Assembly (NCBI GenBank): GCA_903813345.2
Contig: CAIIXF020000011.1
Coordinates: 8,022,571 to 8,086,570, forward strand
DNA length: 64,000 bases
Reading direction: 5' to 3'
DNA from: Owenia fusiformis
Taxonomy: Eukaryota > Annelida > Polychaeta > Sabellida > Oweniidae
Translations under genes and position numbers: made by a program
Notes under the pieces: model-generated
What the model was told of the DNA's origin: nothing
Seen by the model: the letters and a program-made list of their open reading frames with translations, nothing else
Database searches by the model: none
Shown here: one piece after another, positions 2,157 through 46,900 of the stretch
Position numbering within the stretch: the stretch's first letter is position 1
Layout: the number at the start of each line of letters is the position of its first letter

Positions 2157-4343
2157 CAGTAGGTCATCAAGGACAAGCTTCAATCCACTGATCTTTTCAG
2201 TTTTCTCCTCATGGTCAATCCTGTAGACATCCAGCCGCATGTCAACTAAAGTTGGGTGTTTCTCTTGGTACCTAAACATAACATAAGATAAGATGTGTCC
2301 TTCAGACCATTCTAATATAAAGCGCCAATATATGAAAGAAATCAAAAATCCAGGAAGTTCATGTATGGCAATTTTTCATGCCAAGAATTGCTTATTTACA
2401 ACATCGCATATGTTTACAATAATGACATGAATTGTTATCGAAGAGCTTGCAGTAAAGGTGGCTAAATGAAATGATAATCTAAATAAAAATTTTGTTTAAA
2501 TGAAATACCTTTCCAGTGCTAGAATATTCTGGACCAGTTGAAGCACCACTGGTGTCTTACACTTTCCTTTAACTTCAAACTTAAACATTGGTGTCTCAGA
2601 CTTAGTATTTTCTCTTCCTTTCCATTCCCCATGAATCTGCACCTCGTGCTTCATCAGTGTTGAGAACAAGGTTTGAGCAATAGGTGGCGCTATGCTACAG
2701 ATATAAAGTTTGTCAAATAGATCTAGGAAATTCTCCAGTGGCAGCCAAAATTCACGTTTATGGCGGTTTCGTGGTAGAAGTTCTTGTAGGATTGAAGATG
2801 GTATCTCAAGGTCACCGACCATGTGAGGATATGTGGTCTGTGTGAGGCTGAGGATGTTCAGAACGCTGAATTGTTTCAGCGAAGCAGGGCTCCATAGCTG
2901 GATAACATGGAATTCTGAGCTGGCCATCTGGACTGAGGCTATTCCAGTAACTGTGAAGTATAGTTGCTGATGGTTGTTATTAGACTCTGGGTCATCAGAT
3001 AAAAGGTTGCTATGGGCAACAACTAGAGCCCCAGAGTTCAGCGCAGGTTTCATGTAATCAATTACTGGAATTTTGGATGTTGCCATGATGGGTATACACT
3101 CTGTGACACCCCCAGTCAGAGCCAGGAAAGCCATTGCAGGGCTAGCCGCCTCAATAGAACCGTATGATCCACAGACCTTACTATAGGCTTTTTCCAAGAG
3201 AGGTAGCCACATTTCCCCAGGTGTTGAGGTTTTAGCTCCCCATACACTTGAATGGCTGCAGGGTAAGCAATCATCTACATAGACCCGTGTGAGCTCTCCT
3301 TCCACCCACATATTGCAGTAAAATTGTCCATTGTATAGTTTTGTATTTACAGGATAGGCATCCTTTGGGACAATTGCTTTGTACATGGCTTTATGTTCAA
3401 TGATTGATACAAGAACAGATAAAAATGCACTGTCTTTTAACTTGCCTTGCTTGATATCTAGTGCTATTGGAAAATCACCTTTAGTATATAAGCAAACAGG
3501 TTTCTTGATGTTGAAGCCCTCCCAGCTACGTTGCCATTTGATGAACTGTGGATGTGGGTGTACATCTCCCATACTCTCCCAATACTGGTATTCCTGATCC
3601 AACCAAAGGGCACCTTGGTAACTTATCCACACATTTGATAAACGATTTAAAATCTTTCGAGCATCCGGGTTATACTTCTGTATCTCCTTAGCAACAGGAC
3701 TGGGGAGCAGCCTTTTAGTTTCCTTCCGACAGATATTGATATTCTGTTCCCAGAAGCTCTCCTGGCTGGTATGGTTTGAACCAATGCGGATTATGGATGG
3801 CGTGTTATTATTTGAATTATTTCTAGCAACTGTGTGGTTTTGATTCCATCTTGGTTTTACATGTACAGGATGGTCGCCATTACTCAATCCTATAGATGTC
3901 TTTGTGAAGGTCTTAGAGGCATTATGGACAGGCTTAGCGTCATCTTTTACAATAGACTCATGACTACTACTGTGATGTGAATTTGCCAGCTTTGATTTCA
4001 TTGACCGAGAAAGCTTGATTTCTTTTTCAGATGAGACCTCTTTTACTTTTCTTCTACTGTTTTCATGTTTTGAGAGAACTCTGGCATTGTTCTGGTTTTT
4101 ATCTTTGGTGTAACTGGATCCTATTTGAGTTGATTGCCTTGATTCTGTGGTTGGTATTACTTCGAGTTTGGATCCCACCAGTGCTAGGTTCACCAGGTGT
4201 TTGGGTTTTTCAATGAGGTAGCCACTTTGAAACAGAACCATGCCTTCTCTTTGGAAGATGTATTCAATCCTGATTGGGTTTTCCCCAGCATCTTTTCTAT
4301 TGCTATTATGTTCTTTCTTCAAGCTGCTATTATTACACCCCAT
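2157..4343 (-). CDS. calpain-like protein, probably inactive; 5' part, runs off left edge
   Basis: Two exons are visible on the minus strand: 4343-2509 (ATG at 4343) and 2271-2157, joined in phase 2. The second exon ends at a GT donor with no stop, so the C-terminus lies beyond the window. The N-terminus MGCNNSS fits an N-myristoylation signal with an adjacent Cys for palmitoylation, suggesting membrane association. Residues ~25-60 form a small hydrophobic block, followed by a polar linker to ~210. A calpain (CysPc) fold spans ~240-490: VDDCLP (~356-361), a WLPLLEKAYSK block (~379-389) and LTGG (~409-412) are recognisable. The catalytic residues are lost: the DCWF position reads DSAF (~304), the HAYSVTG position reads LYFTVTG (~461) and the NPWG position reads SPAS. 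I infer a non-proteolytic scaffold or regulator. It could belong to an androglobin-like or other divergent calpain group. The gene is divergent from SENP6. Confidence 0.8.
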
Positions 4344-4829
4344 AATTATCTAATCTGTTTGCTTAAGTTTTGTTTGTTATGTTTCTTGTTCCATTTTGTC
4401 ATTTTTATTTGTTTGTGTTTTTCACCATGGGAGCTGTTTCGAAATATATGTAATACTATGACATCACAGAATAATCAGAACTGTAAAAATAGTATTCATA
4501 GCAACTGTTTTTTTTATCCTATTGTGATGTCATAAATCTTTGAAAATAGCTTTCATGGAAATGAGAAATCATTGGAGATTTGTAAAAGTCATTATGATGT
4601 CATCACAATTAATCTGTATCATCACCATGACAACACTTTGTTATATTGTGTACCATAAGTAAACAGTTTTGATTGAAATAATATTTTGTTGCCTGTTTTA
4701 CGTGCTGTACCTGTGTATAACATACCTTAGTATCACATGAATCTTGGTTTAAGTCTGATGTAAACAATGAATATACTGTATAAAGTCTTCACATTTTAAT
4801 GGTGATCTTTTACATTTATTTTAAAGACC
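4344..4829. promoter_or_regulatory. region between two divergent gene starts
   Basis: This AT-rich stretch of about 490 bp separates the minus-strand ATG of the calpain-like gene from the first plus-strand coding sequence I can assign to SENP6. It may hold a shared promoter. That is uncertain because the first recognised SENP6 exon also has a good acceptor (TTTACAG) at 4882-4888, so true 5' exons of SENP6 may lie further upstream. I see no clear TATA box or CpG island. Confidence 0.3.
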
Positions 4830-4946: not shown

Positions 4947-7900
4947 GTGAGTAGATGAAATAAAAGGAACAGAGTGCTTTGATAGAATGCACCATACTAG
5001 CAGACCCTAAGATTCAGAATAATTGGTACAAGTCCTTTGGACTTGTAAGTGAAAATTTTTCAAGTCCATCCAAAAAAATACAAGCCAAATAAGGACTTGT
5101 AAATTTTAAAGTTACAAGTCCAAAAAATCAGCCAACTGAACTCTGTGAACGCATTCTTTTTGATGTTCACACTATTTGGGGCAAATTTGGACACTTTCTC
5201 GCAAGTAATGCAAAACATTTTATCGCCTCTGTGAGCTAACCATGGTCTTCCAAATTCCCATTTGGGTAGATACTTCCGCTTTTTGGTCTTTTCCATATCA
5301 TATATGAGTGGTTTCCGAAAAAATTGAGAGAAATATGAATATTTCAAATATATCAAAAGTAAAATTTCGAAAAAAACACTGACAAAGGTACAAGAGAGGC
5401 GAATTCTGATTAGTTATTGCCACCGTAAGTAAGACAGATATGTAAATTTAAGCCAATGAGATCGCGGTTTACTTACGTGTTTTGGCTCGATGTCCATCCC
5501 ACAATTTAGTAGGCGAGAGAGACGGTTTTTGATTGGTTATTGCGAGCGGAAGTATTGCATATTTTTAAATTTAAACCAATTGGAATGCGGCTTACTTACA
5601 TATGTTTGGATCTGCATCCACGGAAAAGAAATCAAAACAAAGTTAGTTTCAAACTTTTTATTCATGATATTGCCGCGACCAATATTGATGATTACAGTCA
5701 ACAGCTGACAGTCTATCAGGGTAAGCTTGTGGGAATCTTAGGGTCTGCATACTAGTAGTCTGTATACTTGAGTAGGGAAATACATGTATTCTGTGGGGAA
5801 GGCCAGGGAATTTATGAGCACATATTAATTTGAAGTCTAATATTATATTTATATAAAAATTTTCTTTATCCTGTATTTACTCGATTTGTTTCTATTTTAG
5901 GCCTTACATAGCCACAATTATGCAAGACAGAAGTCATTGCAAGGTCAAGGGCAGTATCAAAACACCCAAGGTCAGACTCAAAAGCCCCAAAGCCAGCCAG
6001 GAGTAACCCCACAGGAAAGTAATGCATATGATATGGTGAAGAAACATTATGGGGAGAAAGTGATAAATCGTCGCCCCCAGACAGTGATCTTGACCCCCCA
6101 GGAAGAAGAGCAACAACAGCAATTAATGCAGCAACGACAGCAGAGCATGTCCAAGATGTACCGTGACCAAGTCATAGATCTGCCTGATAAGGATCTGTCA
6201 AGAAAACAAACCCCAAACCAACAACAGCAATTATTGCGACAACAGCAACAACAACATCAGCAATTGAAACAAATGCGCCCAGTTACTCCAGGCACTCAGC
6301 TTGTGAGAGGTCCCCATCAGATGGGAATGCCACCACGACCTCAAATGAACCCAGCCCTTGGACCAAGAGCACAGCGACCTCAGCATATGGGTCAGATGAT
6401 TAATCCACAGCAGCAGAGCCCACAAATGGGCCAGCCTCCAAGGCCCCAGTTCCAAGCAGCAGACTCCAGTATGCAAATGGTAGGCTCTCAGGAGCAGGGG
6501 GAACCTGGTGGTAAACCTAAGAAAGCCCCCAGAAAGCCTGCCAAGCCTAGAGTCCCCAAACCTCCTGGTCCACCAAGACCAAAACTTCCAACAAAGAAGA
6601 AAGTAACAAAGAAATTAATAGCAATTCTTGCAACTCAAGGGTACACTGAGGAACAAGTGAATAAATTGAGCCAAGAAGGACGTCTTCGACAGGGCTTTGA
6701 TTTGCCTCTTACGAATCGTCAAATGGCTGATTTCAATATTGGGGGTAGGGGACATCAGGGATCAGGGATACCTCATGGATCAGGTACACAAACAGCTGAA
6801 GGACAGTCACCCCATGACCAAATGCCTCAGAGCTCCATGCCTCCAAATACCATACCTCAAAGCTCAATGCCTCAAAGTTCAGTTCATCAAGGTCATACTC
6901 CGCAAACATCAATGAACCAGGCACAGATGTCCCAAAGTCCTGCCTTGCAAGGCCAAGCATCCCAAGGACAAATGTCTCAAAATGAAGTTACACAAAACAA
7001 GTTATCTCATTTACAAATACATCAACAGCCCAACTTGCAAGAAGACATGGCATTGGCTAAGATACCTATAGCTCAGAGACCTGTAATGCCCCAGGGCCAG
7101 GTGCAGCATGAACATCACATGCCTCAGAAACAGGGCACATCTGACATGCAGCAAGGTCAAGGTCAAGTACCTGAGGTATCCATGTGTATTAAAGAAGAGC
7201 CTGAAGATCCTGACGACCAGGAAAGTCGCGACAGTTTACAATCTCACGGGAGCTCTACCATGCAATCCCTACCCCCCTCTAGCCAGTCTCACCCCAGAGG
7301 TAGCCATGAGAGCACCCCAGAAGGATCCTTTTCACACAATAACCCAAAGTTAGCCAATGAGCTTGCCCAAAATCCTCAAATACCTGCATCAGGACCTATG
7401 CAGATTCAATATCTAAATAAGGCCAACCATGGCCAACAAGGACAGAAACAACAGCATATGATCCATCTGGGCCAGGGAGCACAGTACACAATGGCACAGC
7501 ACACAGTGGCTCAGCATACAGCCACACAGCACACTGCAGCACAGCCACATCCTGGTCTTCTCACACCAGGGAGCCAGCAGTTTGTTGTACGTAATAACAT
7601 TCCTCTGCACCAGAGGGCACCAGGGACTCAGTCTCCTAAGAAAATGTCTAAGACACAAGAATTACTGGCGCATGGAGACAATCGCAATGTGGCTGTTGTC
7701 CAACCCTCTCACCACCCCCCACAGCAACAAAAACCCAACTTTACCATTGGGCAGATACGTGGAGCACACCCTAGCTTAAGGGTGGTTAGACCCTCTCATC
7801 CAAATGTTGTAATACGACAGGCTGGTGTTGGGAATAGTTTACGCATCATGACGCCAGATAGGACTGTTTCGTATTTGAGTCCTCAACAACAGCAGTATTT

Positions 7901-10900
7901 CCTTCAGCAGCAGGCATTATCTCATGGTCAGGGGACAAAACAACATGTTGTGTTACATTTACAGAATCAAACATCTGGGATTGCAGTACGTTCTCCTTCA
8001 CCATCTCCAATTGCCTCACCTAACACCAGTACCCCAACCACTCATCCTAGCCAGGTACGTACGATTATGGCGCCACCTATCAGCCCAGTCCCTGACCCGG
8101 AAACTGGCAGCGAAGCTAGTAGTAGTTGCAGCTCCCCCATAACCACTCCTCCATTGCACCCCAATAGTCTTCTGGCAAAGCAAAATCAGATCCCTGGGGT
8201 ACAGCCAAACCCCAACCACCAGGTTCACAAAGTACAACAGCAGCGACCTGTGCTAAACCCAAATCATCAGGTTGCACAGCAGCAGCAGGCAAAGTCTCAA
8301 GCCAACATGGTGTCTGAGATCCAGGGTATCCCTGTTGTGACTCTTCCTGTGGACAAAATGAACCTGTGTAAGGGCAAGCAGTACTTCATCTACAGCAGGA
8401 ACCAGTCCTACATGATGGCCACCTGGGATGGCAATAACTTCTCTGTCGCAAACAAAGGAACATGTAAGTGTACAAGAGACAATTTTGAAGTGCATACTTA
8501 ATAAGTGCACAATTTTCAAGGAATGGATGTTGACATTGTTATATTCTCTAACCTTTTTGTGGATTTCAGTGGGCAGCGTTTAGAATCTATAACAAATGGC
8601 AGGTGATGACATTTTCCATGTTAATGCCTTGTTAAAATTGAATTGAAAAATGGCGCAGATTAAGAGCTGATTAATTTTTTGTGTTAATCAAGAACAGAGT
8701 GTATGTATCTGGTGATATTTTTATCCTATTTCATTGTTACCAAGTTTTACAAAATCTTAAAATGATGAGAATACTCATAAAAATAACCCAAAACAGATAT
8801 TTCTTTATCTTTAAATTGTTAAGTTCCCTTAGACTGCTTTTCATGTTATTCAATTCAAATGATATTTGAAATAGTGATGGAACATGTGACGTTTCATGAT
8901 ATATACCCTCGAGAAAGCAGAGTAGTTGGGGGTGGACCAACCAAGAGGTTAAACAAAAGAAAACTCAGAGGGAATGCTACAGGACTTTGTTAGTTCAGAA
9001 AGTATTCTTCAGTTCAAGGAAAATTGATTTTTGTTTATTTAACATTTTATTTATTGTTATATGGTTGTGAGTTTTGCATGTGCACATTGTTATGTCACCA
9101 TCACATGTGGTGACATATTGTGTTATGTCACCATCACAAGTGGTGACATATGTTAGTCTCCAACTTTTTTGTGTTTGACAATTTTTGTTTGATGGTTGTT
9201 GTTTGGCATTCAGTGTCTAACAAATGGTGGTGGTGACATTTTGCATGTGAATTCTTTCTTTTTTCATGTTTTTTCATTGATTGTTCCTTTGAAATTGTGT
9301 ATTCCAAATAAGTAGCTGCTATTGGTATTTTATGTTATTTTTGTTAGACTTAGGGAATAAAGATGTTATGCATTGCTTAATTTTCCTGAAAAATATATCT
9401 GCCAGATACAGTTTTATTTTGTTTATCCCCAGATGCATTAATGCCATATGATAAAATACCCTTTGTGGTTTCCAGTAATGAATTCAGCGAGTACCAGCAA
9501 AGGTCCAGCTGGAGTTGGGGGTCAGGCTCAGAGTCCTGTTATAGGAGGTGGGCGTGGCAGAGGTCGGGGTGCAGCCGATGGGTACGTTTGAGTCAGTAGA
9601 TTTGTTCATAGTCTTGCATTAAGTCTACTCTGATTGGTTACATATGGGCTTGATGCAAGACTGATTTCTCTGCTCTCTTTATAATGGTCAATGGTCATCA
9701 TATTATACATAATTTCTCTCTAGATCTGTACTGTTGTGCTGTAAATTTCACTCTTATTCAACATGGAGAAACCATGTGACATTTGAATCTTTTGAATTGT
9801 ATTACCCTGTATGTAGTTTGAGAGAGTTTATACAAATAGAGTGGTATGCAATGATGACATATACAAACTATTGTTGTAATAATATGAAAAATGTAAAACT
9901 ACAGTACTAAATTTGTGTAGCAGACACAAGAAAATGAGAACCTATATTGAGAAAAAGTTTGAAAATGCATTATGTGCTAGTTTTATAAAGTGCACTTTAA
10001 ATGTGTAGAGAATATTTATACATGCAATACATTACAAATGGGATACTAATGCTAGATATTGATAACTTAAGCTTAATATGAAAAAATACCAATGGGGTAA
10101 TGTAACTGATGAGGTTGGACTCATTCATATCAAAATTTAATCCAGAGCCTTCAAAAAGGCTAAAAGAGGCTATCCCACGTGTTGTTTCTCATTTTCTAGT
10201 TCTCAGTCGAAACCAGGGAATAACTGGGTTTACAAAGATGCAGTTGGTGGCACTTTGACAAGGTCAGTTTCAAATTAGTGTAGATGTGAACTTTTTGGGA
10301 AATGGCAACATTTTTAATTCATCATGCTGTTACATGTCTTAGCAATCAGTATTTTCAGATGGAAGAGTACAGGCCAAATAAGTTACAATATTGGTTAAAC
10401 ATTGCCTTGTAGATAGCAATTCAATTGATTGTTATATTCAAAAACGCATTAATATGGGGCAGAAGGAATCCAATGTATCGCATAGTGGGATTGGTTGTAT
10501 AGTTTATCACATAGAAAGGTATTCTTTAACACTGGTTAGTTTCATGTTTGGCTTTCTGGAGGATTTGTATTCTTATTCATATCGTTTGTCTAATCTACTT
10601 GCAGACGGCCCTTACATGCACCAGCGACACCTGGTGTAGAAGGAGATGAAGATTCCCAGGAGAAACAGGCGGCTAATGCCCCAGCAGCAAACAGAGAACC
10701 ACCCAAGAAACGGCGAGATTGGAAATTCCCAGTAAGTAGAAACCAATATGAAAAATATGTTTTGTAAATGACATTGGTATGCTAGCATATGTGTGAAAGC
10801 TTCAATTTAATAGTTAGGGGTCAATTTTCAAATATAGTTTGCCAAATCTGTTATAACCATTGGAATCTTGATGCCAGAAATATAATGTTCCACTCACCAA

Positions 10901-13900
10901 TGTTCTTATAGAAAGACTGGGGCATCAAAATGCACACACGAACTAAATGTAAAAAATATTATTACATGTATTTATGTTATGATAATTAACTTTCAGGATG
11001 ATGAGGAAGGCACCATTCGGTATGCTATATGTAAGAACTGTGGCAATACATCCAGAGACTTTGATTACTGTGATGGATGCAAAAAATGGATTCCAGATGA
11101 AAGAAAGTGGCGCGTTATCAAAAGTACACCTGGCACCAGTACAACTAAGGACAGTAAAGCTGATCCAGTTGTTGATAAACAGGCATTTTATGGCAAAGCA
11201 AAGGACTCCTCAGAGATGTATGAACATTGTGGTATTAAATACAAAGTGAATACAAAGCCAGCTGCCAAGCAGTATATTATTGTAACACCCTCCAGGGGTC
11301 GGGGAAGGGGCCGTGGACGAGGCAGGAAAGCACAGAAAGCACCAGAGATCGGTATGTTGGCTTTACTTAATCATTTAATTTTATTTATTTATTAATGAAT
11401 TAATGCTAATTTCCTAAGAACAATGTCAGTTCTATAACATAGGTTGAAACTTTTTAGGAAGCTCATGAATAACCAGTTGCGACTTAAATATTTTAGAAAT
11501 TCAAATTCCTTTATTTAATATGAATATGACAGGGAGATACAAATGACAATATGTCAAAAAGTGATCTTGAGAATGAGATACTAAAAAATACAAAAGTAAA
11601 AAGATATACATGTAGTATAGAAGTGGTTTTTCCTCTTTTTGTGTTAATCTTTCAGTCACTTGTAAGCACTTTAGAGGGAGAAATGAGATATTCTAAGCTA
11701 GATATCCCAAGAAATAATCTCATCTTTCTAGGATAGGTTCAAATGCCAAAAACAGCTGTTCCATGGATCACATTTTAAATCAGTTTGGACTAAAAGTCAT
11801 GCCAAAAAGTCAAAACTGAATAAAACATCTTAAATTAGCCCATCGAACAAAGTTTGTAGCGTTATGGAGAAGCCATCCATCCATTCATCCATCCATTCAT
11901 TTGTTTGTTCATTTGTGTGTCCTTAAGATTACTCAAATACCAGTTGACAGATTTGTTTCAAATATAGGCTTATATCTCAGGAGAAGTGAGTACCTCCCAC
12001 AATTCTTTCATATTCTATCGTATTCGGGGATTCCCCATTATATGACGTCCAATCAAATTGTAGAATGTGATCATGTGAACAATCAGGAGCACGTGCTCAT
12101 TCAGTGCTGCCCATGCGTAAAGTAAAATTTGAAATCGTGGAAATGGCGTTTATTTCAGTTTAACATCATTTCAACATCATCATTTCAAAACTGCGGTAAT
12201 ACTATTGAAGTTACTCGATCCAAACTTGTAGAGAATTACTCATAAAACAACAGCGAACATTGTGAAATCCATTTCAATGGCAAATGAGGCCTGTTTATAA
12301 AATTGTTCACCGAACGTGCCGAATACTACAGGTCATCTTTGGGAAATCTCCCCCCCCCTGCTTTTATCTTATGAGTGTAGGATATGATTGAGAAGAAATT
12401 TTCAATATGGCCACCCAATTTGAAATGACCGCCATTTTTTGTAAAAAATGTAACCTTTGATAACTGATATATCATTTGACGGATTTGGTTCAAATTTTAT
12501 ATGCTGATGCTTAGGGTCATTGGAGTTTTTTTCCAAAAGAAATTTTCAAGATGGCCTTTGATTTTTAGAAATGTAATCTTTGAGAACTCAAATACCAGTT
12601 GATGGATTTGGTTCAAATTTTATAGTGTGTAGGACCTCTGCTCGAGAAAGAATTTTTAATTTGGCCTCTCAATTCAAAATTCGAAAAATACCAGTTGATG
12701 GATTTGGTTCAAATTTTATATGCTGATACCTTCCCAGGAAGAATTTTCTAAGATTACTTCCAAAAACTTTCCATCCTTGTTATTTCCTCCCCCCCCCCCA
12801 AAGTATTTGTGTCAGTTTTAATTCTAGTTAGATAGACATAACCAGGAGATATGATCAAGAAATCATTATCAGTCTTTTTTGCTTTTTAAATCATTCCATG
12901 GCCCTTCCATGTCAAAAGTCATAGCCTCACTTTGATTCAAGGATAGTGTAACTGAAGCAAATTCAGTAAAGCTTTTAAAGAATTTGAGAAATGAACACTA
13001 TTTGATCATTTTCCACATTATTTTGATAATTTTTATTTATTTATTTTTTTAAAAATCTTGGGAATCATCAAATCAAGAGCTTATTGAATACCTGGGGCTT
13101 AAGCTGTGTACCAAACAAAATGAAATGACACAACATCCAGTGCTTTGTATGATCTTCATTAGACAATGGTGTATAAGGGATCAGTTGATTTTATACGAAC
13201 AGAATATACAGGGAAATGTAATTTAAGTGGCAATTGTGTTCTCTGCTTCTGGGCACTTTACAAGTGATTTTGGCCATTTTTAGGCCAAAGTTGTCAAAAA
13301 GGGAACAACAAAAAACTTTGGAATTTTTTTAAAAACTGAACCCCCCTTGGCAAATCCTGGCTACGGGCCTGCCTAGTCTAGTTTAGTCAGAGTTTCCAGT
13401 CTATTTCTATAAAGGAATGTTGTTATTAACATATTGGCAGACAGAATCAATAGGCTACAGTGCCCTGATCATACCATGTGCTGTTAAAGCTCCCTGTTTA
13501 ATCAGGTCATTAATAATATATTGCTGATGCATGGTAATATCCAAGGTTATTCTCCAAGCCTTTCAGGCAGACAATACAAATCTATTCTCTACATTTATTA
13601 CTGCACATTATGCATAGATGAGTAATTGATTTGACCACACTTTTATACTTTAGTTTGAGAAGTACAATTAGTATAAAAAGTAAAGTAAAGTAAACATAGA
13701 ATTTCCAGTGTGATGATTGTTCAGGTAAATGTCTTGTTACAATTGGCCCTTTCCAATATAAATATATGTGAGTACCTTCTTTAGCACAGTATTTTGATAG
13801 GGACATATTAAACATTTTCCCAAGCACAATGTTGAAGGCAGACTGATCTTGTCTGTGGACATACGTATCAACATTATATATCAGACGGTAAAATGTTTGC

Positions 13901-16900
13901 AACCATATGGAGTCCCACATCACTGCACCTGTGGGGTTGATACATTGTAAATCAAGGGCACATCGTACTAAAGGTCTTATAAACTGTGTCTGGATCCTTG
14001 CACTGTTAATAATCAACAATTTGCCACCTTCTATCGAGATCTGTTTATTGTACCTGTCTGGGGTGACATTGAAATATTTAAACATCCCTGGGTGTGTGTA
14101 GCTGTTACTTAACAACCCATTTATACTTGGTGCTAGCACCCCTGAAGATTTCACCTGATCAACTATTGGCTTCAAGTTCTTAGTTGTAAACCGTATTGAA
14201 GTATCAGCCCAGAGTACTTGTTGAAATTCCAGCAGGGTCTCATTTATGATTAAAATCTTGAATGCAAATGTTAGTAAATTTTTTACATGAGGTGGATATT
14301 TCTGGAAGTGGAAATCTCTTATCTTGCAACCATCGCAACGTTTTTGAATTTCACTGACTTCTGTAGTTGTTAGTCCAAGGTTGTAAACTATGAGTGGATT
14401 ATCTGGTTGATAGTGTTGCTTATTCTCAAGAAAGACATGAAATTCATTCACATGGTTTGAGCTTAATCCTGTTATGATTGTAAAATTGTTAAAATGTAGT
14501 TCCTGTGCGACTGCATTACTCTCCTCTTGAGCCGCCATCACCTCACATATCATTAACATAAATCTTGACATATAAACCAGTAGTAGTTTGGCCATGGTTT
14601 ATTATATTCATGGTCATGTTGTAGTCAGAACAAATAGATGATAGTGTTATAGATGTATACAGTCCTTGTGTTAAGAATGACGTTCTAGGCTGGTTGGTTT
14701 TGTTGAGTGTGTTTTATAGGAACTGGTTAATTTTATTGATTTTCACCTATCTAGTTTAGGGGCCGGGTCAAGATTTCAATATCCATCAAAAAATATAATG
14801 AATTTAGTTTGGTCTTAAACACTCCTCCCTCCTTCATGCAAAGTATAAACAAAATGTTAATTTGCATTCAATATCACATACCTGTTGTTGCATATTTAAT
14901 GATCATACCATTGCAGAAGATAAATCTCTGGGAAATTTAAAATGGATGTCCCTCACCTAATTAAATAGGGCTTTACCTCGGAATACCTCCTCTCCCTAGC
15001 GTCATTAATTCCATTTTTGACTGACATTGAAACAGTGATCCAGCCCCTTAACCTCACAATTTAACTTTCATAAGCAGCTTTGGCAATTCATAGTTTGTAA
15101 TAAACTGGGAGTTGTATGCCTATGGTTCAATCATAGTTGTTCAGTAAAACAAATTCCTAAATGTTAAAGGCAGAATCAGATCTATAGGGGTGAAAAAATT
15201 ACAAGCAATGTGTAAAATTGACCTTCCAATCTATTCCTTACAATCTCATATACAATATCTCCCAAAAGATTCACGCTATGTTATAAATTGGTGAAGTTAT
15301 AATAGATTCAAAGTTTAAAAATGAGTGAAAATGTTTAAATTCTCCCAAATAATAAGAATGGTAACCATTCTTATAGAAAAATAATATGTTATTGTAAATA
15401 TCTTTAGTTTTCCTGAAATAAAGTATGCACTTGAGTGATTTTAAGAAAATAGACATGAAAAGGAATGACACGAGGCAGAAATATTTTAAAATTGAAACAA
15501 TTTTTTATTTGGCTGCTCGCTAGATCTGATTCTCTCTTTAATTTCCTAGATTTTTATTTCTTTTTTCCTTTCTATATCAGGTTGTATTTTTTGTTCATAT
15601 ATTTTATGATTTTAACCTTGACTGACTTTTCTTCTGGAAATGATGTTTTAGCCTTTAATAGGAAGAATGAATGTCATTGAGTTTTAGGAATTTTTTGTAT
15701 GTTATGAGGAGGGGCCTAAGGCTCCTAAGGATAAATACATTTTTACAGTGTACATGTTTCTTTCATTAAACTCAAGTGATCTGACTCATATCTGTCAAAG
15801 TAACACTTAACTGCTTAGCTTAGAAATGAATATAAATCATTCTAAAATTAGTCAATTTCGATATCATGTGTTATTTTGGCAAAAACAGACACAGCAGAAA
15901 ATAGATTTTATACTTTTTGGGGATGGGAATCTAAGGAATACTAAATGTCTTCAATTATAATTGACATTGATAATACTTTACAATGACCCATTACAATCAG
16001 CTCATCATATATCATCATCTTTCACTAACATCATAAATACATCTACTTGCTAAATCTGGTGGCTGGCAGTCTGCCCACTGCAGCCACACTCCTTTGGTAT
16101 AAATTATATCAACATGTATACTTTTCAGACCAGAGGGGGCCAATAATGCTTAAAGCCTCACTCTCCACAAGCATGTACAGATTTATATATATGCAAATAA
16201 AAACAATTTACCTAAAAAAAGTAAAACTTAAACCACTCTGACTTTTTCCTCTCATGCCACTGAATTATATGTTTACCGTAATCACCATATTTAGCGCCCA
16301 CCCCCTAATAAGTGCTCACCCCACTTTACAAAATTCAAGTTATAGTACTTCCACTAAAACAGTATACACATGTTCTAATTATTTCACACAATTCTTAACT
16401 AAATATTATCCCAAAGTTCAAACAGTATTGAGAAATGACCAAGTATGAGTGAACATATGAGAAAAAATCTAAATTTTGAGAAATCAAATTTCTCCTTATT
16501 CTCACAATTTTTACATGAAATATGGTGATCTATCATTAAACAATTATCTTGAAATATGACATTAGATCAATATCCAACAGTCTCTCATGGAAATAATAAC
16601 GATAGTCAGGGAAAATATATCCTTTAATTTGTTGGGCTCCACTGGGGATTTCTGCAATATTGTCTGGTTGATTCATGGTTTATTTAGTGATCTTAACTGT
16701 AACAATTTGCAATACAAGCTATACCATGGGATTTTATACTACTCTTATATAGGGGTGCTCATTAGATAGTGCTACGGCCAAGGCCATTTGTGTCCAAAAC
16801 ACCTAGATTCAATTTGACTTTAGATTCTTGTAGGGGACCCCAAGGCATGTAAAAAAAAGTTTGTGAACCCTTGCAAAGCAGGCTCAAAAGTGCTGAGTCA

Positions 16901-22900: not shown

Positions 22901-25900
22901 AATGAGGACTTAGACCTTACAACTTAACACCAGCCCATACATACATAGAGCCTCACATGTGGCCATGTGAATAGGTTATTCAGATAATGTTCGCATATTG
23001 TTTAACTATATAGCTTGTGTTCCTGCTACATACTGTAGTTGTTTCACTTCTTTTCTATGACATCGATTAAACATCTAAAGGATTGCCTATTAGTGTTGGT
23101 TGCAATTAAAGTATACATATCAATGTTGTCAACTACTGATCTGAATTTGATTGTGGGCTTGTCATGTTATATTACATATACATGTTCATTCATACAGATA
23201 AGATAACAACTTGCTCCTTGCCTCTATGCTGGTCCTTTCTGATTCTGATCACATTATAATAATTGTTTTACAGTGCAGAACAAGATCCTGAAGCTCCCTA
23301 TCTTCAAGCAAGACATAGAGAAGGTCCAGGCTTACTTTGGGGAGGACATGCCTGTCTTGTTTATTGTTACTAATCCTGCCTGTGCCCTCAAAATCAGATC
23401 ATGCTGCAGGATGAAACGTAGTGAAGGCACTTTCTATGACCCTGGCAGTACAGGTAAGTTACTTTTTAATATACTGCTTGACAGAAAGATATAATATTTT
23501 AAGCGATGTGCTTTTTTGCTGAGTTTTTAAGATGGTCAGATTTTAGGTATGATATTGTTCGTACTGTGTCTTCTTTTATATGATTGTTTATCATATTTTG
23601 ATATGTCATATGATGTCATATGTTAAAGTGTCTTTAAAAGTGTTAGGAGTCAGCAACGCCTTTCAGGTTATTATTTACAGGGAATACACCACTGTAGTTT
23701 TAATGAGACTTCCTTTTGTAAGATAAATAAACGTGAAAATCATTTCAATCAAAAGAAAAGTAAACTTTTAAATCATAACTAATCCAGTCAATTTTTGAGG
23801 TCACTGTTTATGATATTATTGTTTGAAACATTGGATTAAGATGTGAAGTTATGAGCATGTTGTTTGATTGATGTTGCCCTACCTGTTAAGAGGCCCATTG
23901 GGAGATAATCCCCAATGGGAGACATCTGAGGAGGTGTCATTGTGTATGATCTTATTGTTTGAAACATTGGATTAAGATGTGAAGTTATGAGCATGTTGTT
24001 TGATTGATGTTGCCCTACCTGTTAAGAGGCCCATTGGGAGATAATCCCCAATGGGAGACATCTGAGGAGATAGATGTCATTGTTTATGATCTTATTGTTT
24101 GAAAAATGGGATTAAGATGTGAAGTAATGAGCATGTTGTTTGATTGATGTTGCCCTACCTGTAGAGAGACCCATTTGGAGATAATCCAATTACAGAATCA
24201 TGAACAAATGTTGAGAAACAGTATTTTCTCTATCAAAAAGAATATCTTGAGTAGCATCAAAACAAACAACAATTTCGTATGTCTACATCTTCAATCAAAT
24301 GATGTTGTTAGCATATGTGAGTTTTCTAATTTTAAATCAACAATTGCCCAAAGTTTCAATTGCACAAATGTGTCTTGTCAAATTAAAAACAGCCTCCCTT
24401 TCAATGTTTTCTAGTGACATAGATTCAATAGATATTTTTTATTCCATCATCATTTTAATTAACATTTAATTTAACATTGGTAGGGAGGTTCCTCGCTCAT
24501 AGCCCAGTTAACTTTTGGGACTTAAATTGATATGTTGACTGAGTCACTAGACTTGCATGTTTTTTTGGTTTTTTTAAATAAAATTTATTTCAGTTAAACA
24601 TAGTTATTTACATGTATGGTACAAAGATGAGGTTTCAAATTCATAAAGAGTATTTAATGGCCTAGTCACATAGCCCGGCCGATGAGGTTCCGATGAGCCA
24701 GCGATGCAATTTTCACCGAACTCGGCGGAACACCGGCCGGACATCCGTGGCGTTTGTTGCTTAAAACCGCATCGGTGGCAGCTCGGTGAAATTTTAACTT
24801 CGGAGTTAAATTTCACCGGGCTCTCACCGAGCTCCCTCATCGCAGCCCCATCGTAACCACATCAGAACACACGTCGGCCGGTGCACGGCCGAGTATCGGT
24901 CGGTGTCCCGTGTATCTGAGACAACCAGAGGACGAGGTTTTTTTAACGGACACCGGCCGAGCTCCGACCGAGCTCCGGCCGATGTGGGACAGAGCCTTGG
25001 AAAGTATAGTACCTGAAGATGTCCGGACGGAGTCCGTTCACGTCACCGAGCTCTGCTTCCGATGAGGAGAGCTCGGTGGCACCAATAAAATCCACCGAGC
25101 TCTACCGATGCCGGACATCGGCCGGGCTATGTGACTAGGCCATAAGTTACTCACACATTTTTCAATATACCATTTGTGAATAGATAACTTTGCTATCAGT
25201 ATATTTTTGAAATTCTTTACTTTACCTATATTCCATATATTTGATTGGCAGTTATATTTGGGAAATGTTTAGTCTAAAATTCAGCAACTGCTTTGCATTT
25301 AACAAAATGATGCTCTAAATTATCTATTTCATCACAGCTTAAACATTTGCTTGAATTTAAAATACCATATCTATGCAGTAAAAGATTACATGGATATATT
25401 GAATGTAAAATCTTCCAGTGTAGTATAATTAGGTCTGTTGCTGTAGTACAATTTCTTGCATTAAGTCAGGTTTTTCCTGTTAACACTTCATTTTTGAATG
25501 CAATCTTACAAACCTGTTTTTCTATTAAAATTTTCCTAAAATCTTGAACATTTAAGTACTGCACATCTGTAGACCTGCATGTATAAATTGCCAACATTGT
25601 TTAGATTTCTGGTGCCAGTTTTGACTAAATTGAACTAAAATTGCAGTATTAATATGGTATGTGTTTTGCGGCTATTGTTGTTTAAAGGATTATTTCTGAT
25701 TATTTACATCACTGTAGTGTTTTGAGACTTCCTTTAATTAAGCAATCACTTTATGTAATCAGACATAAAACATGTTTATTTATGAACTTTTGTAAGATAA
25801 ATAAACATAAAAATAAAATCATTTTAATCAAAAGAACAGTCAACAATTAAATCATAACTAATCCAGTCAATTTTTGAGGGCATTGTTTTTAATTGTTTAA

Positions 25901-28900
25901 AACATGGGATTAAGATGTGAAGTTATGAGTATGTTGTTTGATTGATGTTGCCCTACCTGTAGAGAGACCCATGATGAGATAATCCCCAATGGGAGACATC
26001 TGAGGAGGTTTTAATCCAATAATACACACATGAGGAAGTGTTGACAGACATCTGAGTAAATTGTTTTTTACCTGATGATTTGGGATTATATGAGATTAAC
26101 TACCTGTTGGTATAAATACTGAGGAGTTGCCATGGTCACCTCACTTGTCTCCTAGAGCTCAAAGTATTATCAACACATCATCAGCACTACCAACAGCAAC
26201 AACATAACACAGCAGAGAAACACTTGAAGAATAACTTCAGCAAATCTTAAGACGATGTATCACAGAAGCAAGCTAACAATTGACACCTCAGGGAGCTCCA
26301 CCAGGGATGTGATCCCAACTGCAGGCTGCGACAAGGAAGCAGCAGCCAGCACTGATGGGGGCCTTACAAGTCTCCTGATTGATGAGATTCCTGGGTACCT
26401 TACCCCGCCACCTACCCCAGTGACACCTGGCCTGCCATTGACCATCACAGCAATCCTAGAGGATGACTTTAAGCCAAACATCCAGGATGTTCACCAAGGA
26501 GATGCTCAACATGAAGACAGAGTTGCTGATCTTGGTACCACAGGCTGGGACGGTGATGCTGCTACTGCCTTGGGACTTGCTGCTGTCGTGTCTTCATCTA
26601 CAAATGATGCATCTGCTATTAATTTGGATAACCCCGCCTCTACTGATATTCCCCCACTTGCTGTTTCAACTGCTGCATCAGCTTCCCCTGCTGTGACACA
26701 AGTGACAAGTCGGCCCCTTGCTAGGGGGCATCGAAGAGGACACCTGACTGCAACAGTGAAGCAAGAACTAGAACGTGCTTACAGGTTCAGCCCTTACCCT
26801 AGTCCTGCCATCAGACAGAAGCTGAGCAGCATTACCAAGATGACAGACAATAGCATACAGGTATGTAGAATTATAGCAGTAAAATAAGTCATAGTGCTGT
26901 TCTTACTATTCATGCATTGATCATTGATTTAAAGGACTTTTGAAAGGAAATTATCCATATGTATTTAGCTCTAAAGTGCTAAATAATTGTGTTATAAAAT
27001 TGAAATAATGTTCAACATTGCCACCTTTGTAAAATGGTCTTGTTGCTTATTACAGCTATCTACAGATGTAAATGTATTTTAAATCATCTGATATTTGTAT
27101 TTTCAGAAATGGTTCTCACGACGTAGACAGACCTCGACACAACAGCGCAACCAGATTCTCCTAGATAACCTGCCAATAGTTCTCTCTCCATCGGAGAGGA
27201 ATGCCATCTATACTAGCGAGTGGAGTTCAACTGAAACAACGATAGCTGACACTTTGAATGGTCCTGAACTGAGCTCCAACCATCACTCAACGTCACAGCT
27301 TAGACACTTGTAATAATTAGTTCGCTGTAATGGAATCACACCACATGAAATTGTAAATATTACATTAGGAATTGTAAATATTGATCAACATCGCATCGTT
27401 GTTCAACTATAAGGACATTATCAAATTACTTATGAAGTCACTTCTTATCGCACCAACATGAACTTGAAGATAGGATCACATGTTCACTCATATGGCAGGC
27501 TAAATTCAACTGAACACTTGTTCTCCTTGGGGACTCATGCCAGCATCTTTGAATATGTGCCACATTTGGTTGAATGATTTAAATGCCGCAGTTGGACTAT
27601 TTGATTAGTGTATCCTACTCCAATGTGACATGATGATTATGCTGTCACATTTGGATTCTATTATTTATTGGTCATCAGCCATTTTGATCACTTTTTGAAT
27701 GAATGATTGGTTTAAAACATGTGTACACATGTGATTGTGTATAATTCATTGATCTCATTGTAAATACACCTTCCATCTTAACTACATAAACAATTTGTAA
27801 ATATTGTACATGTTAATTGGACATAGATGTAAATAAAATCTTAAAATGAATGTGAGGTATTATATTATTATTTAACATTAAGTTTGTGGCTAATAAGATT
27901 ATACTTATTTGCACTTCCCCTCCCCCAACTAATTCTATTCTATTCTCCCATATTATTCAAATTGTTAATGTTTTCCCATTAAATGCCATTCAGCATTTTT
28001 CTCCATGTAAATGTATTTCAGGCCATCCTACTGTCTAACAATTTGAACTTACATAGCAAATGAAGTTTGTATAGGAATATTATATAAAGAGAATGTTTTC
28101 ATTCTGAACAATACTTCAGATGTTGGGTTAGATGTGCAGAATGACTGCAATTTTTCAGATACATTTTCATATATCTAGTTGAAGTTGACACAAATTGAGG
28201 AGCAAAGCATGAATCTGTCAATTCTTTTGGAAGTGAAGCAGCATTAATTTATGTTTCATATATAGATCTGGCTACGTCCTTGTTGGTACTCCTACCTACT
28301 AATACAGTGCAGTGTGTTTTAGTTGATGGCCGCTATATGGGATACCTTAATATGCATTTAGCCCTTTATATGTCACACTCGCTTGTAGACATAATGATAT
28401 ATACCCAAATCTTAAAACTCATTTATCATAGGATATCCTCCATTTATGTGTTTCAGTTGAGAATGAGAAGAGGATCACAATCCTCCTTGAAGGCATCAGT
28501 GGAGAGGACCAAGACAAACTACATGAGATATTTGATGAAATCACCAAGTCTAATGGGAAAGAGGAGCCAATACTTCAGGAGATTGAGATCTCTGCAGCTA
28601 ATGACACTCTTCTCAAGTGTGCACCCCCTCATGCCAGGAAACAGGTATGATTGGCTATGAATAGTCACATGACTTGGATGACTCTCAATCTGATTTGGGA
28701 GTGGAGATTGTATAGCTAATTCTGTTATCATTTCGGTATATATTTCCGGGGAAATCCATTCATTGTTTAGGATAGTATTATCAAAGGGAAATGAATGGTG
28801 ACCCACAAGAAGACTTCCACTCTTATTTATGTTCAAGTGTAATTTATAATCATCATTTTTATGTTTTAACAGTTATACTGTATAAATGAAATATGTGTAA

Positions 28901-31900
28901 CATTAATTTTTCCAAAATTAATTTATGGTATAAGGTCGTAATTCAACTGTCATTTACTGCAATCCCTCTGGAAATATTGATATCTTCTTTGTGATATTCC
29001 ATATATCCAATCCCTCTGGCTGAATAGCTACTTTATGCATATTAGAGTCACTGCATGCCTGTTTCTTTATATTATTACCACCTTGCCAGGCCAGTTCTAG
29101 GGGTTTTAGTGCTAGTTTAGAGGGTGTTCATTTTACTATATCGACCTGAGCAATATGTGATGTCAAAGTGGTGGTCAAGAATGCATTTCAGACCTATCGA
29201 GAATGAATTTAACGACCGGCAATTTTCCCCGAGAAACTAGATATCGTTCAGTGCGTAAGATTTTCTTGCTGTTTCAGTCCTGGTCGTTAACGGTGGTAAT
29301 AATACTAATAACATCATTCCAATATTTCACTATATTGCCCGCAGAAATGATGTTATTGTACTATTATTGTTTATTTCTTTTCAGGTTGAGAATCTGAGTA
29401 AGAGTCAATGTGGAGATGATGAAGATGAGGAAGAAGAGGATGAGGACATGGATGAAGACATGGAGGAGGGAGAGATTCCTCCTAAAGCTGTATTCAAAGG
29501 TCCTGTAGAAAAGTAAGATATCAATACTTATGACTACAAGTTTTAGCATGTTGAGCCAAACTTCGAATCTTAGATACTGCTATTCAAAAACTAGTTCCTT
29601 CTTATACCCCAGTTGCTCCAAAATGGCAGAAATTATCCAAAGTGACTAAATATTTTGCATGTTTATTGGACTAGCAATGTTTCTCCTCTATTTACTTTAC
29701 TTTTTGTGTTTATTTCAGGATGTGTACTTACCCCCCACCTCCAACTGTGGGTGGCATCACAGTGACCAATGAGGATCTGTTTTGTCTCGGGGATGGAGAA
29801 TTCCTCAATGATGTCATCATCGACTTTTATCTCAAGTAGGTTAATTCTCTTTCAAATTCATAAACTAGTACAAAACTATTATTACATTGTATGAGATTAT
29901 CAAACATGCTATGCATCTTTTGGCCATATTGTTTACTTTCATTTACTAGGTCAGATAATAATACCATATAGCCTTGAAATGCCATGTGAAACTTCCAATC
30001 AGAACTAAATAATATGTAGTTTCCTTTGATTTAAAATGTAATACAATAAATTCAATAAAATTTGATTTACCATGTAAATGATGTTTTCCCTGCTATAGGT
30101 GGTTGTTCTTTGAGAAGTTAACGGAAGAGGACAGGAAGAGAACGCACATCTTCAGCTCATTCTTCTACAGACGACTTATGCAGAAACTTCACACATCACA
30201 GGAGGAGAAAGATATAAACCTCACGTACGTATGATGTGTAGTTCATGCTTAAATGTATTCATGAGCCTCTATTTTTAATCTTAAAACCACTTTGAAATGG
30301 ATTTTTCAGTATCATCTGTGGATATCGAATTCATCGGTCAGTTCCTTGTTTAGATTTTAAAGATCTTGAAAAGTCTATTTTACCACACTGGAATCCTTTG
30401 AGATGTTGCAAAAATGCAAGTTCTCACAAGATTCATTGATACAAAAATAGAAACTGACTTGTAGTAAAGTAACAGATCTAAAGGACACTAGTCTAGACAT
30501 TACAAAAAAGTAAGGGAAAAAAATAAGTACATCATGGTTATACTAGTAGAAGCGTTGAAAACATACATTCAGTGTAACAGGAAATATGAAGCGTGACACT
30601 ATTTTAAAGTATATGAATATATTGTGCTTTTTTGTATATGTTTCATTATATTCCAGGCCTCTGCAGAAGCGTCACGCCCGTGTAAAAAAGTGGACCAGAA
30701 ATGTGGACCTCTTTTCTAAAGACTTCATCATCATTCCTATTAATGAAAGGTACATTTAAAGCCCCTTATGTGTTTTAAGCTCACAGAATAATGTTAAAAC
30801 CATGTCTCCTTTGTATATTTACAAAATACACTAAAACTCCCAATGTTCTTTATATACCACCTTCAACCAGTTAATGTTATATACTTTCATATTAAGATTA
30901 GATTCAAGACTAGAAAGTTTGAAAGTTTTGAACTCAGAATCTATGTGAAATGATACATGAACTTACGAAATGAAACAACAAATAATAAAAAGACCAGGAC
31001 AGGTGGAGGCTCAAAGTTTAGGCATAAATGTTCTACACCACAGAAATATTGGACGCTGCTCAATTTCATTCAACCATTATATTGTGCCTAGTAATACCAG
31101 TTAAATGTTGGGATTATGATTTGTATAAAATTCTTATATTCCAGTGCCCATTGGTACTTGGCCGTTGTTTGTTTCATTGGAATGAAGACGCCCAAGACAG
31201 AAACAACAATTATTCCATCTCATAAAGTGTCATCGTACTTAGCTACACTCCCATCTAGTGTCAAGATTATGATACCAGCCAAACCAAAGATGACCCTAAA
31301 GCAGAAGGAGAAACAGGTGGATGGGGCAGATAACAAATCAAATGTCACTAATGCCAAATCTAATGCACCTGACATCAAAGCTAGTGTCTCAGAGAGCAAG
31401 TCTGAAGCCTCAGATACTAAACCTAAAAGTTCCAATTCTGACACTGGGGATGATAAATCTGAGAAAACGGGTGGATCTTTAAATAATAAACAGAATGCTG
31501 CCAGTATTAATAAAAATGAGAAATCTCAAAGCAAAGACAATAAAATGAGTCCTGCTGCTGAAAATGAGTCAACTCCTGAAACTAGAACTAATTCTGAGAA
31601 AAAAGACAATAAAATAAAAACTGAATCAAAGGATAAAAACTCTGTTGGAGATAATCAAACAAGAAATGAAGATTCGGAAAGTGAGTCTAAGAAAGTTGAC
31701 AGTAAAGAACAAACTGATGGTTCAAATAAAACAGCTGGAGCCAGTAAAGCTGCTGAAGCATCAAATGAAACAAACTCTCGTGAGAAAGCTGCTATGGAGG
31801 CAGACCTCTCAGAATCACAAGATACAGATGATGATAAGTTAGATGCAGATTCCCTCGACTCAACATTGGAAAAACTTGCCACAGATTATGCCAGTGATAG

Positions 31901-43900: not shown

Positions 43901-46900
43901 GGAGGATTGGCTCCCAGGATTGAAACTCGATATTTTCCAACAATGAAACCGTTGAAATGTCGTTATTTTCTGAAATTATAACCGACTATAAATTAAACAG
44001 TCCAAAAGATCCAAACCAATATCTCGATCATTTCTTGTGATTCAAATGTTGAAGTGAACAAAATGGCAGCTGTTTGAATTTGAATTTTGATATCATGACA
44101 TCCGCATATATGGCAAAAATATCTATGTTGCATTCTGGGAGCCAATCCTTCTTGTCTGTCCAGGTAATAATTCATAAAAATGGTTGATGGATTTGGTGAA
44201 ATATTTATAGATTGATACCTCAGTTTTTCAACTTGTTGGTCAGTGTTGAAGTGCAATTTGGAATTATTTCTCTGTTGAAATGCAATATAAATATTTCCTT
44301 TTCTGAAATGCAATATCAAATATCACCTCTGTTGTAGTGCAATGTCAAATAATTTCTCTGTTGAAGTGCAATATCAAATATTTTTCTGTTTTGATGCAAA
44401 ATCAAATGTTTCATTTGTCATAGTGTAATATCAAACATTTCATTTGTCATAGTTGTAATATCAAATATTTCCTCTGTCATTGTGAAATACAAAATATTTC
44501 CTCTGTTGTAGTGTAATATCAAATGTATCCTCTGTAATAATGTGTTATCAAATATTTCCTCTGTTGTAGTGCAATAAGGAGGAAGAGGAGAAGGTAGATG
44601 TTAGTGTACCTCTAGCTCTCAGACCGACCAGCCAACCTTTGACCGTCATAGACACCAAACAGTAAGTACAAATACTTGAGGAATTTCAGATAGGTCATAT
44701 TCTGAAATGTGAAGGAGACTGGTAAAAAGGAATAAAGTTAGGCTACAGACATACATTTAAGATGCTAAGACAGAAATACCAAAATTAGGCAGTTCAATCT
44801 TAAGAGGGTTGAGTAGAAATGAATGCACGTCTCCACAAAGCTACAGTACATGTATTATTATTATGTTGCGTTAATGTTCCCATAATCAAATGGATTTGAC
44901 ACAAATTCTAGAATAGTAACACAAATGAATCAATGATAAAACAATAACCAAAACACTTATAGATAAAAGTTTACTGGAGTTTTAATTGCACGTCGTAACT
45001 CAATGGTTATAGCTTAACCGTAACATGTTAATAAGTTTATATTGCATTTGAATAATTCTTGGATTCAGTATTTATTCCTTGTTTGTAGGGCATGTATCCT
45101 GATCTTTGACTCCTTAGCTGGTCCCTCCAGGTCTACAGTCATACGCACACTCAGAGAGTAAGTAAAGCTGACCCATCTGGGAGTCATAAATTCAGGGTAT
45201 TACAATACTATGGGTGATATATATATAGGGTATTACAATACTATGAGTGATATATAGGGGATTACATACTATGGGTGATAGGGGATTACATACTATGGGT
45301 GATATATAGGTGATTACATACTATGGGTGATATATATAGGGGTTATGTACTGGGAGGTTTTGGATACAGGGAATATCCCGAGGGATATACAATATATTTT
45401 CCCGAGGGACCGAAGGGACCGAGGGAAGATGTATTGTGTATCCCAAAGGATATTCCATGTATCCAAACCGACCATGCATAACTGGTGTATCTCATGCTTG
45501 AGTGGGTTTAGGGTAGCTATAACCTTTTCCACCTTTTTCAAATGACAAGATATTTATATTTAAATTTTCGTAATATTTTTTTTGTTCAATACAATGAAAC
45601 TGTAACATTTAAACTTAAAAAATTTAAATTTCTAAAATTAAAAAATTAAAACTTTCGATATTTAAACTTTTTTAAAATTTTGAAAAATTCCCGGGAGCGG
45701 GATGGATATATTATATCTGCCCGCATTTGGCCTGGAGCGGGACATATACAATATATCCTGCCCGCTCCTCAGATTCGATATATATTCCCGGGTGATATCT
45801 ACCCCAAACCCACTCAAGTATGAGATACAGGGGATTACATACTATGAGTGATATATAGGGGATTACATACTATGGGTGATATATAGGGGATTACATACTA
45901 TGGGTGATATATATAGGGGCTTACATAATATGGGTGATATATATATACATGGTATTACATACTATGGGTGATATATATAGGGGATTACATACTAAGGGGA
46001 CCACAATTACATACTTTATTTAACGTTTGGTCACTTATATCCATTTCCAATTTATTAGTTTTCACTATTATCCCATGGACTCAATTTAATAAAAATGAAT
46101 TGATTTCCAACATACAATGTTTCCCATGTAATAATATAAAAATATGAACTTCATAATATTTAAGAAATGTCAAGAAGTGTGATTAAAAAGTTCCTTCTTT
46201 CAGGTACTTGAGTTGTGAGTGGGACATCCGCAAGAAGGATAAGGAGGGTGCCAGGGTGTTTGACAAGGATACCATCAAGGGTTCCACCCCCAAGGTTCCC
46301 CAGCAGAGCAACTTCAGTGACTGTGGAGTTTATTTACTGCAATATGTGGAACAGCTGTTCAAGGTAAGACAATGACTAATCATTTTCATAGCACTTCATT
46401 AAGAGTTACAGGCTCATATGACCAGGGTAAATAAGTCTAATGTATGGTACAGATTTAGCACAGCAATGGGTTGATTGATTGAGTCCTGCCATCTGATTAG
46501 GCAGGGTTATTCCAGGTCAATCTTTAAATCATTAAATCAACAGACCAAACTCATAAACACCATTGGTATGTTGTTTTTGTAATAAAAGTTAAGTACAATG
46601 TACATATGTTTAGATTTAATAACTTTATTACAGTATATACCAAGTGTATATACCAAAGCAAAATTGAAAACACTATACAAACACACAATATTTCATGAAA
46701 AATATTAATAAAAGATAACTATAATATTGCAGACTCCACCCAGGACATACCCACCTCCAGGTGCCCTGCTGAAGAACTGGTTTCAGGAAGAGACTGTCAA
46801 CAGGAAGAGGAAGGAGATTATTGAATTGGTAGAGACTTTAAAACAACAACAAACAGCATTAAAGGAACAATCTAAGAAAACTAGGCCTGATACCCCTGTT

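Follow-up and report, generated by a model that had tools for sequence, protein, structure and literature searches.

A nested homeobox gene of Owenia fusiformis with arginine at homeodomain position 51

The window analysed here is the whole 64,000-nucleotide stretch of the Owenia fusiformis genome (contig CAIIXF020000011.1, positions 8,022,571 to 8,086,570), and coordinates refer to it unless they are marked as genomic. On its forward strand lies a homeobox gene of two coding exons with a predicted product of 270 amino acids. Coding exon 1 (26255-26860, +) holds codons 1-202, the last of which encodes homeodomain position 46, and coding exon 2 (27107-27313, +) begins with position 47 and holds codons 203-270 and the stop. 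The sole coding intron (26861-27106, +; 246 bases, GT..AG ends) is in phase 0 and lies between homeodomain positions 46 and 47, as the first-pass annotation of this DNA had stated. A TATA-box-like TATAAA at 26111-26116 (+), 144 bases 5’ of the start codon, is the putative core promoter element, and downstream of it, ahead of the start codon, there is a single ATG (26132), close to the presumed transcription start. A candidate poly(A) signal, AATAAA, is found at 27832-27837 (+).

We scored coding potential by codon log-odds trained on other ORFs from the genome and the window, with the homeobox gene excluded. Exons 1 and 2 scored +0.283 and +0.245 in the predicted frame, while the remaining five frames gave -0.094 to 0.052. 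Among 175 background stretches, each 606 bases long, the highest-scoring of the six frames never exceeded 0.007. The intron and both the 5’ and 3’ flanks were negative in all six frames. The intron has a GC content of 0.269, the exons have 0.51 and 0.47, and an open run of 219 codons in the gene is the fifth longest in the window. The open frame, the splice sites and the coding bias indicate that the gene is intact. A protein search of the genome, run on an assembly with gaps, returned this gene alone, with other homeodomains as the next matches (E at least 0.012), and a family of paralogues was rejected on that result; the narrow pattern W-F-x-R-R-R-Q-T likewise occurred in one place only in the same assembly.

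The homeobox gene lies within a 5003-base intron of a host gene on the same strand (23454-28456, +; GT/AG ends, joining the codon G|TT in phase). The assignment of the host exon to its left (23274-23453, +) draws only on strand, phase and coding bias, and its coding-bias score of 12.2 was exceeded in the same scan by some spurious segments. The exon to the right (28457-28644, +) leads, with later exons, into the catalytic core; an exon region with an Ulp1-type core (Peptidase_C48) was located at 46187-46372 (+) and further catalytic pieces near 29726-29824 and 30112-30222. When the pieces from three downstream + strand ORFs were joined they matched SENP7 (3eay) with E 3.5e-33, with no SENP6 chain among the matches listed, and one of the downstream ORFs matched Peptidase_C48 at 27.7 bits (cut-off 20.7). 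On the strength of these matches the predicted host is SENP6/7-like. The nesting reported earlier stands, with SENP6 and SENP7 not separable here.

Elsewhere in the window we noted a calpain-type open frame at 2499-4349 (-; Peptidase_C2, 127.9 bits), a single-exon DUF1647 open frame at 13585-14598 (-; 47.3 bits), a glutamine-rich open frame of 866 codons at 5901-8498 (+), and, at 10886-11392 (+), a frame that looks like an exon and has a CxxC...CxxC pattern; the last two had no Pfam match.

The proximal upstream region of the homeobox gene (25787-26141, +) contains five GGATTA/TAATCC sites, starting at 25859, 25907, 25980, 26012 and 26083. GGATTA/TAATCC is the site type of Lys50 homeodomains, four of which were found in the genome (L016, L021, L024 and L054) and which we take from their sequences to be of Gsc, Otx and Pitx type. 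Site density is 14 per kb in the 355-base region and 0.59 per kb in the whole window, and five sites per 355 bases were reached in none of 3054 overlapping stretches taken from the rest of the window. Ranked against all 2080 hexamers the motif, which had been spotted by eye before the ranking, came first, with p 1.5e-6, or about 0.003 when corrected. A portion of the region (25787-26010) is present in three further copies about 2 kb upstream (23713-23935, 23954-24069 and 24094-24187, +), 87-93% identical, and every copy contains GGATTA and TAATCC, 73 bases apart. A genome search that skips very common words found no copy outside this locus, and an interspersed repeat was rejected as the source, there being four copies only, all at this locus. 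Some 500 bases of GC-rich sequence (24648-25152), resembling a short transposable element and flanked by inverted repeats (24648-24684 and the reverse complement near 25116-25152), lie between the upstream array and the homeobox gene.

The same sites were counted upstream of genes resembling SPILE, the spiralian TALE expansion. Their upstream stretches hold 14 sites in 9112 bases, or 1.5 per kb with a window background of 0.42, a sum that covers 12 stretches and leaves out a thirteenth (L005, 1 site). The sites are unevenly spread and 4 of the 12 stretches have none, which weakened the idea of co-regulation with these genes; AT-rich control loci were also rich in TATA matches. Single-exon arrays of SPILE-like TALE genes are located at genome C5:39469706-39483441, C1:58459690-58471354 and C4:25513198-25518951, and their members have an N-terminal eh1-like motif (FSIRSLL or FSIKSLL) and Ser, Cys or Ala at position 50.

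The homeodomain of the nested gene occupies residues 157-216, or 60 positions, and exceeds the Pfam Homeodomain cut-off of 22.9 with 40.3 bits (E 2.8e-10). From the Pfam match and position numbering, positions 1-46 (residues 157-202) are encoded at 26723-26860 (+) and positions 47-60 (residues 203-216) at 27107-27148 (+), so that W48, S50 and R51 are residues 204, 206 and 207. Helix 3 reads K47-W48-F49-S50-R51-R52-R53-Q54. The Ser50 (TCA) and Arg51 (CGA; codon 207, 27119-27121, +) reported in the first-pass annotation are thus confirmed, and the observation behind it is real. CGA is three substitutions away from AAT and likewise from AAC. Sequencing error at this codon, named beforehand as grounds for dismissing the observation, is very unlikely because three changes in one codon would be needed and R52 and R53 follow in frame.

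To our knowledge no base-reading residue of homeodomains is more constant than Asn51. A search of the genome gave at least 139 homeodomain matches, with 150 of 218 candidates scored, and among the 111 homeodomains readable at position 51 all have Asn51 except the nested gene. These 111 comprise a tree set of 62 (61 Asn, 1 Arg), a further 40 (34 read by pattern and 6 by eye, all Asn), and additions of 6 and 3. Rows were first chosen by patterns requiring N or R at position 51, and two loci missed in this way, L122 and L123, were later read and have Asn. Nineteen exon-1 loci with no paired exon 2 (L023, L027-L029, L032, L033, L037, L039, L040 and L044-L053) were left out of both the tree and the 111. 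A 22-base repeat, AGATTTGGTTTTTAAGGCGCAG, which would read I-W-F-L-R-R, occurs in 15 places in the genome (e.g., C1:17809097) and looks like part of a repeat family and not like homeodomains.

Homeodomain positions are conventionally assigned to base or to backbone contacts, and the two groups fare differently in this protein. Core positions L8, L16, Y20, Y25, R31, L34, I45, W48 and F49 are kept, as are the usual backbone-contact positions Y25, R31, W48 and R53, while the usual base-reading positions (K47, S50, R51 and Q54) are all unusual. The net charge of the domain is +10, as computed on the domain shifted by one residue, and that of the N-terminal 157 residues is -12. The statement that the rest of the protein is not recognisable held up: Pfam found no domain above cut-off in the 270 residues besides Homeodomain, and when the full-length protein was searched against the genome, nothing beyond the homeodomain gave a match by itself. 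The one addition is a weak eh1-like stretch, LTITAIL, at residues 62-68, of a relaxed pattern that also appears in 129 of 5000 shuffles. An eh1 motif in the strict form was rejected, that pattern being absent from the protein.

The class of the homeodomain was approached by intron position, residue 50, profiles and phylogeny. Of the 30 homeodomains split at 46/47 that were assembled in this genome, 24 are PRD-type, 3 LIM, 2 ANTP and 1 other by class labels that are our own assumption, and Ser50 is found in Pax3/7 and Pax4/6 and also in the TALE genes L066 and L075 (KWFSNKR). Profiles built from the genome gave 32.5 bits for PRD, 30.0 for all TALE, 29.2 for SPILE-like, 27.9 for SIX, 27.7 for LIM, 25.7 for ANTP and 20.7 for POU, so that PRD leads TALE by 2.5 bits only. 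By profile score, exon 1 alone favoured PRD (19.9, with LIM next at 16.5 and SPILE at 12.8), while for exon 2 alone POU, SIX and SPILE were ahead by small margins. The nearest homeodomains in the genome were Lhx3/4-like (E 0.012), TALE (0.017) and Hox (0.023), followed by SIX, and the best PDB chains were DUX4 (3.8e-8, over two domains), Pax3 (9.9e-7) and then Lhx4. The Pfam PAX model found no paired domain in the 270 residues, the TALE-type model Homeobox_KN missed its cut-off of 24 with 23.4 bits, and the TALE three-residue loop between helices 1 and 2 is absent, the domain having 60 positions with W at 48. In a tree of 62 rows by 60 columns, the domain phylogeny that had been proposed as a check, the gene fell on the TALE/SIX side (95/86) on its own branch of length 3.2, and ten AU tests rejected no placement (p from 0.207 for LIM to 0.533 for SIX; PRD-alone control 0.508). 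Two other loci came up in the survey. A divergent homeodomain of no clear class at genome C8:25460920 and 25461397 (L043/L118), reading DYPNKVQKHLIAKRVGISKDQVK and then IWFQNRRRRELIAK, has the 46/47 intron and a normal Asn51; a pattern match at genome C8:18234032 that pointed to another S50 gene having a 46/47 exon proved, when the locus was read, to be a chance match with no homeodomain.

Because the AU tests reject no placement, and the profiles and the tree are mixed, the Arg51 gene is best described, on the sequence comparisons made here, as being without class. The first-pass annotation had drawn a PRD/Pax origin from the intron and Ser50; both observations are true, but neither is exclusive to PRD in this genome, and such an origin is thus not shown. 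That the gene nevertheless derives from a PRD-class gene of the Pax3/7 or Pax4/6 kind, having lost its paired domain and changed Asn51, has in our judgement a chance somewhat short of even. It would account for the 60-residue domain, the 46/47 intron and Ser50, for the top rank of the PRD profile overall and on exon 1, and for the highest pairwise identity in the tree set being to the PRD gene L018 (36%). Yet 6 of the 30 genes with the 46/47 intron are not PRD, Ser50 is shared with TALE genes, and Pax4/6 of this genome lacks the 46/47 split. Known PRD members scored above 109 bits in six leave-one-out tests compared with 32.5 for this gene, and holding it beside Pax3/7 or with all PRD made the tree worse by 7.99 and 3.99 log units, respectively, although neither was rejected (p-AU 0.349 and 0.412). 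An origin from within SPILE, by loss of the three-residue loop and acquisition of an intron, is unlikely. SPILE-like genes share with it K47, in part S50 (RKWFSNKR), and SPYPS, the tree position and the near-threshold Homeobox_KN score point the same way, and the loop appears to be labile, since the SPILE-like copy L073 lacks two of its residues. Against this stand the missing loop and the 46/47 intron, the lack of any similarity beyond the homeodomain region in the genome search, and SPILE profile scores that are below those of PRD for the whole domain and for exon 1. Finally, the gene being the sole exception at position 51 might suggest a decaying pseudogene or an assembly error, but this is very improbable, since the 270-codon frame is open, the splice sites are canonical, both exons show a codon bias specific to the frame, and codon 207 would need three changes.

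The first-pass annotation suggested that specific DNA binding may be lost or changed, and Arg51, along with the unusual positions 47, 50 and 54, supports this: the domain probably reads different DNA or none. Because core and backbone-contact positions are kept, it would be expected still to fold and to bind DNA electrostatically. The A of TAAT would no longer be read via Asn51, and normal TAAT reading is probably gone because N51S abolishes binding in other homeodomains, as described for HOXA9 fusions in the available part of one study (PMC2725295). The same result makes loss of binding, by analogy, as natural a reading as changed specificity. Complete loss, with the protein acting through protein contacts like HOPX, for example by titrating partners or forming dominant-negative dimers with homeodomains, is possible, if rather doubtful. 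HOPX, as far as the available text describes it, keeps the fold without the contact residues and acts through partners (PMC9179269), and the acidic N-terminal part and eh1-like stretch would be compatible with such a role. Against it, Y25, R31, W48, R53 and the strongly positive charge of the domain are retained, the replacement residue is arginine, which can contact bases or phosphates and is not neutral, and the eh1 motif is absent in strict form and, when relaxed, also arises in shuffles. Between changed or relaxed specificity and HOPX-like non-binding, the former is our first choice, with the two judged about even.

Under changed or relaxed specificity, Arg51 together with K47, S50 and Q54 would give a different, probably guanine-containing, preference or a relaxed one. 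Transcription would start from the TATA box under a K50-type homeodomain activator of the Otx, Gsc or Pitx type, acting via the cluster of GGATTA/TAATCC sites and the copies upstream of it. A role in transcription, whether as activator or as repressor, would be compatible with the acidic N-terminal part and the weak eh1-like stretch. Expression might occur in the early embryo, as with other lineage-specific spiralian homeobox genes: in the accessible portions of two reports, over ten unclassified TALE homeobox genes are upregulated in Owenia at 3 hours (PMC12550047), and early expression in the oyster is described for novel PRD2/PRD4 genes and for most of the novel TALE genes (PMC5322547). The link between the Arg51 gene and the early embryo is weak, with 4 of the 12 SPILE-like upstream stretches lacking GGATTA/TAATCC sites. 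Tentatively, then, and with a chance we would place just under even, we propose that this apparently single-copy orphan evolves very fast and encodes a transcription regulator whose DNA recognition is altered, possibly acting in the embryo and under predicted K50-type control. A more specific version, in which Arg51, Lys47, Ser50 and Gln54 form a rebuilt reading head for a new guanine-containing site in place of TAAT, in a lineage-restricted regulator under early K50 control via the duplicated GGATTA/TAATCC promoter array, seems to us improbable as a whole. The interpretation first given to this locus is thus partly supported.

Several known systems offer comparisons. PRD and paired-like genes (Pax3/7, Pax4/6 and lophotrochozoan PRD clades I-VIII) have in common with the Arg51 gene the 60-residue homeodomain, the 46/47 intron and, in Pax, Ser50; the Arg51 gene differs in Arg51, Lys47, the lack of a paired domain, an identity of at most 36% to PRD genes of the same genome, and the lack of a resolved placement. 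With SPILE genes it shares Lys47, the Ser/Cys/Ala50 type of residue, a SPYPS-like loop, TATA-containing upstream regions and an apparent absence of a bilaterian orthologue, but it has no three-residue loop and has a homeobox intron and Arg51, whereas Asn51 is retained in the SPILE-like genes of this genome. A key DNA-contact residue is also missing from HOPX and from other homeodomains that lack the normal contacts to DNA. According to the available parts of PMC9179269 and PMC6997107, however, HOPX is very small and carries one inserted residue between helices 1 and 2; the Arg51 protein is 270 residues long and has no such insertion. Orphan homeobox genes of divergent sequence are described, in the text available, from spiralians (PMC5322547, PMC6118893), including the lophotrochozoan orphan family Lopx (PMC6118893), and from nematodes (PMC4448998). 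The orphans of Caenorhabditis elegans similarly have no assignable class and no known wider orthologue, and one of them, ceh-85, also lies inside an intron of another gene (PMC4448998); this is an unrelated lineage, and the likeness concerns class, orthology and location.

Within the available portions of the open-licence literature we found nothing to the point on Arg51 in homeodomains, and no account of this nested gene in the Owenia papers. New here are an intact homeodomain carrying Arg51, its rewritten recognition helix and a K50-type promoter cluster. As a natural, intact gene that keeps the backbone-contact positions and, by prediction, the fold, it would offer a ready test of whether a non-TAAT code is open to homeodomains or loss of binding is inevitable, and it may be a new player, with a simple, testable promoter, among the lineage-specific homeobox genes of spiralian embryos.
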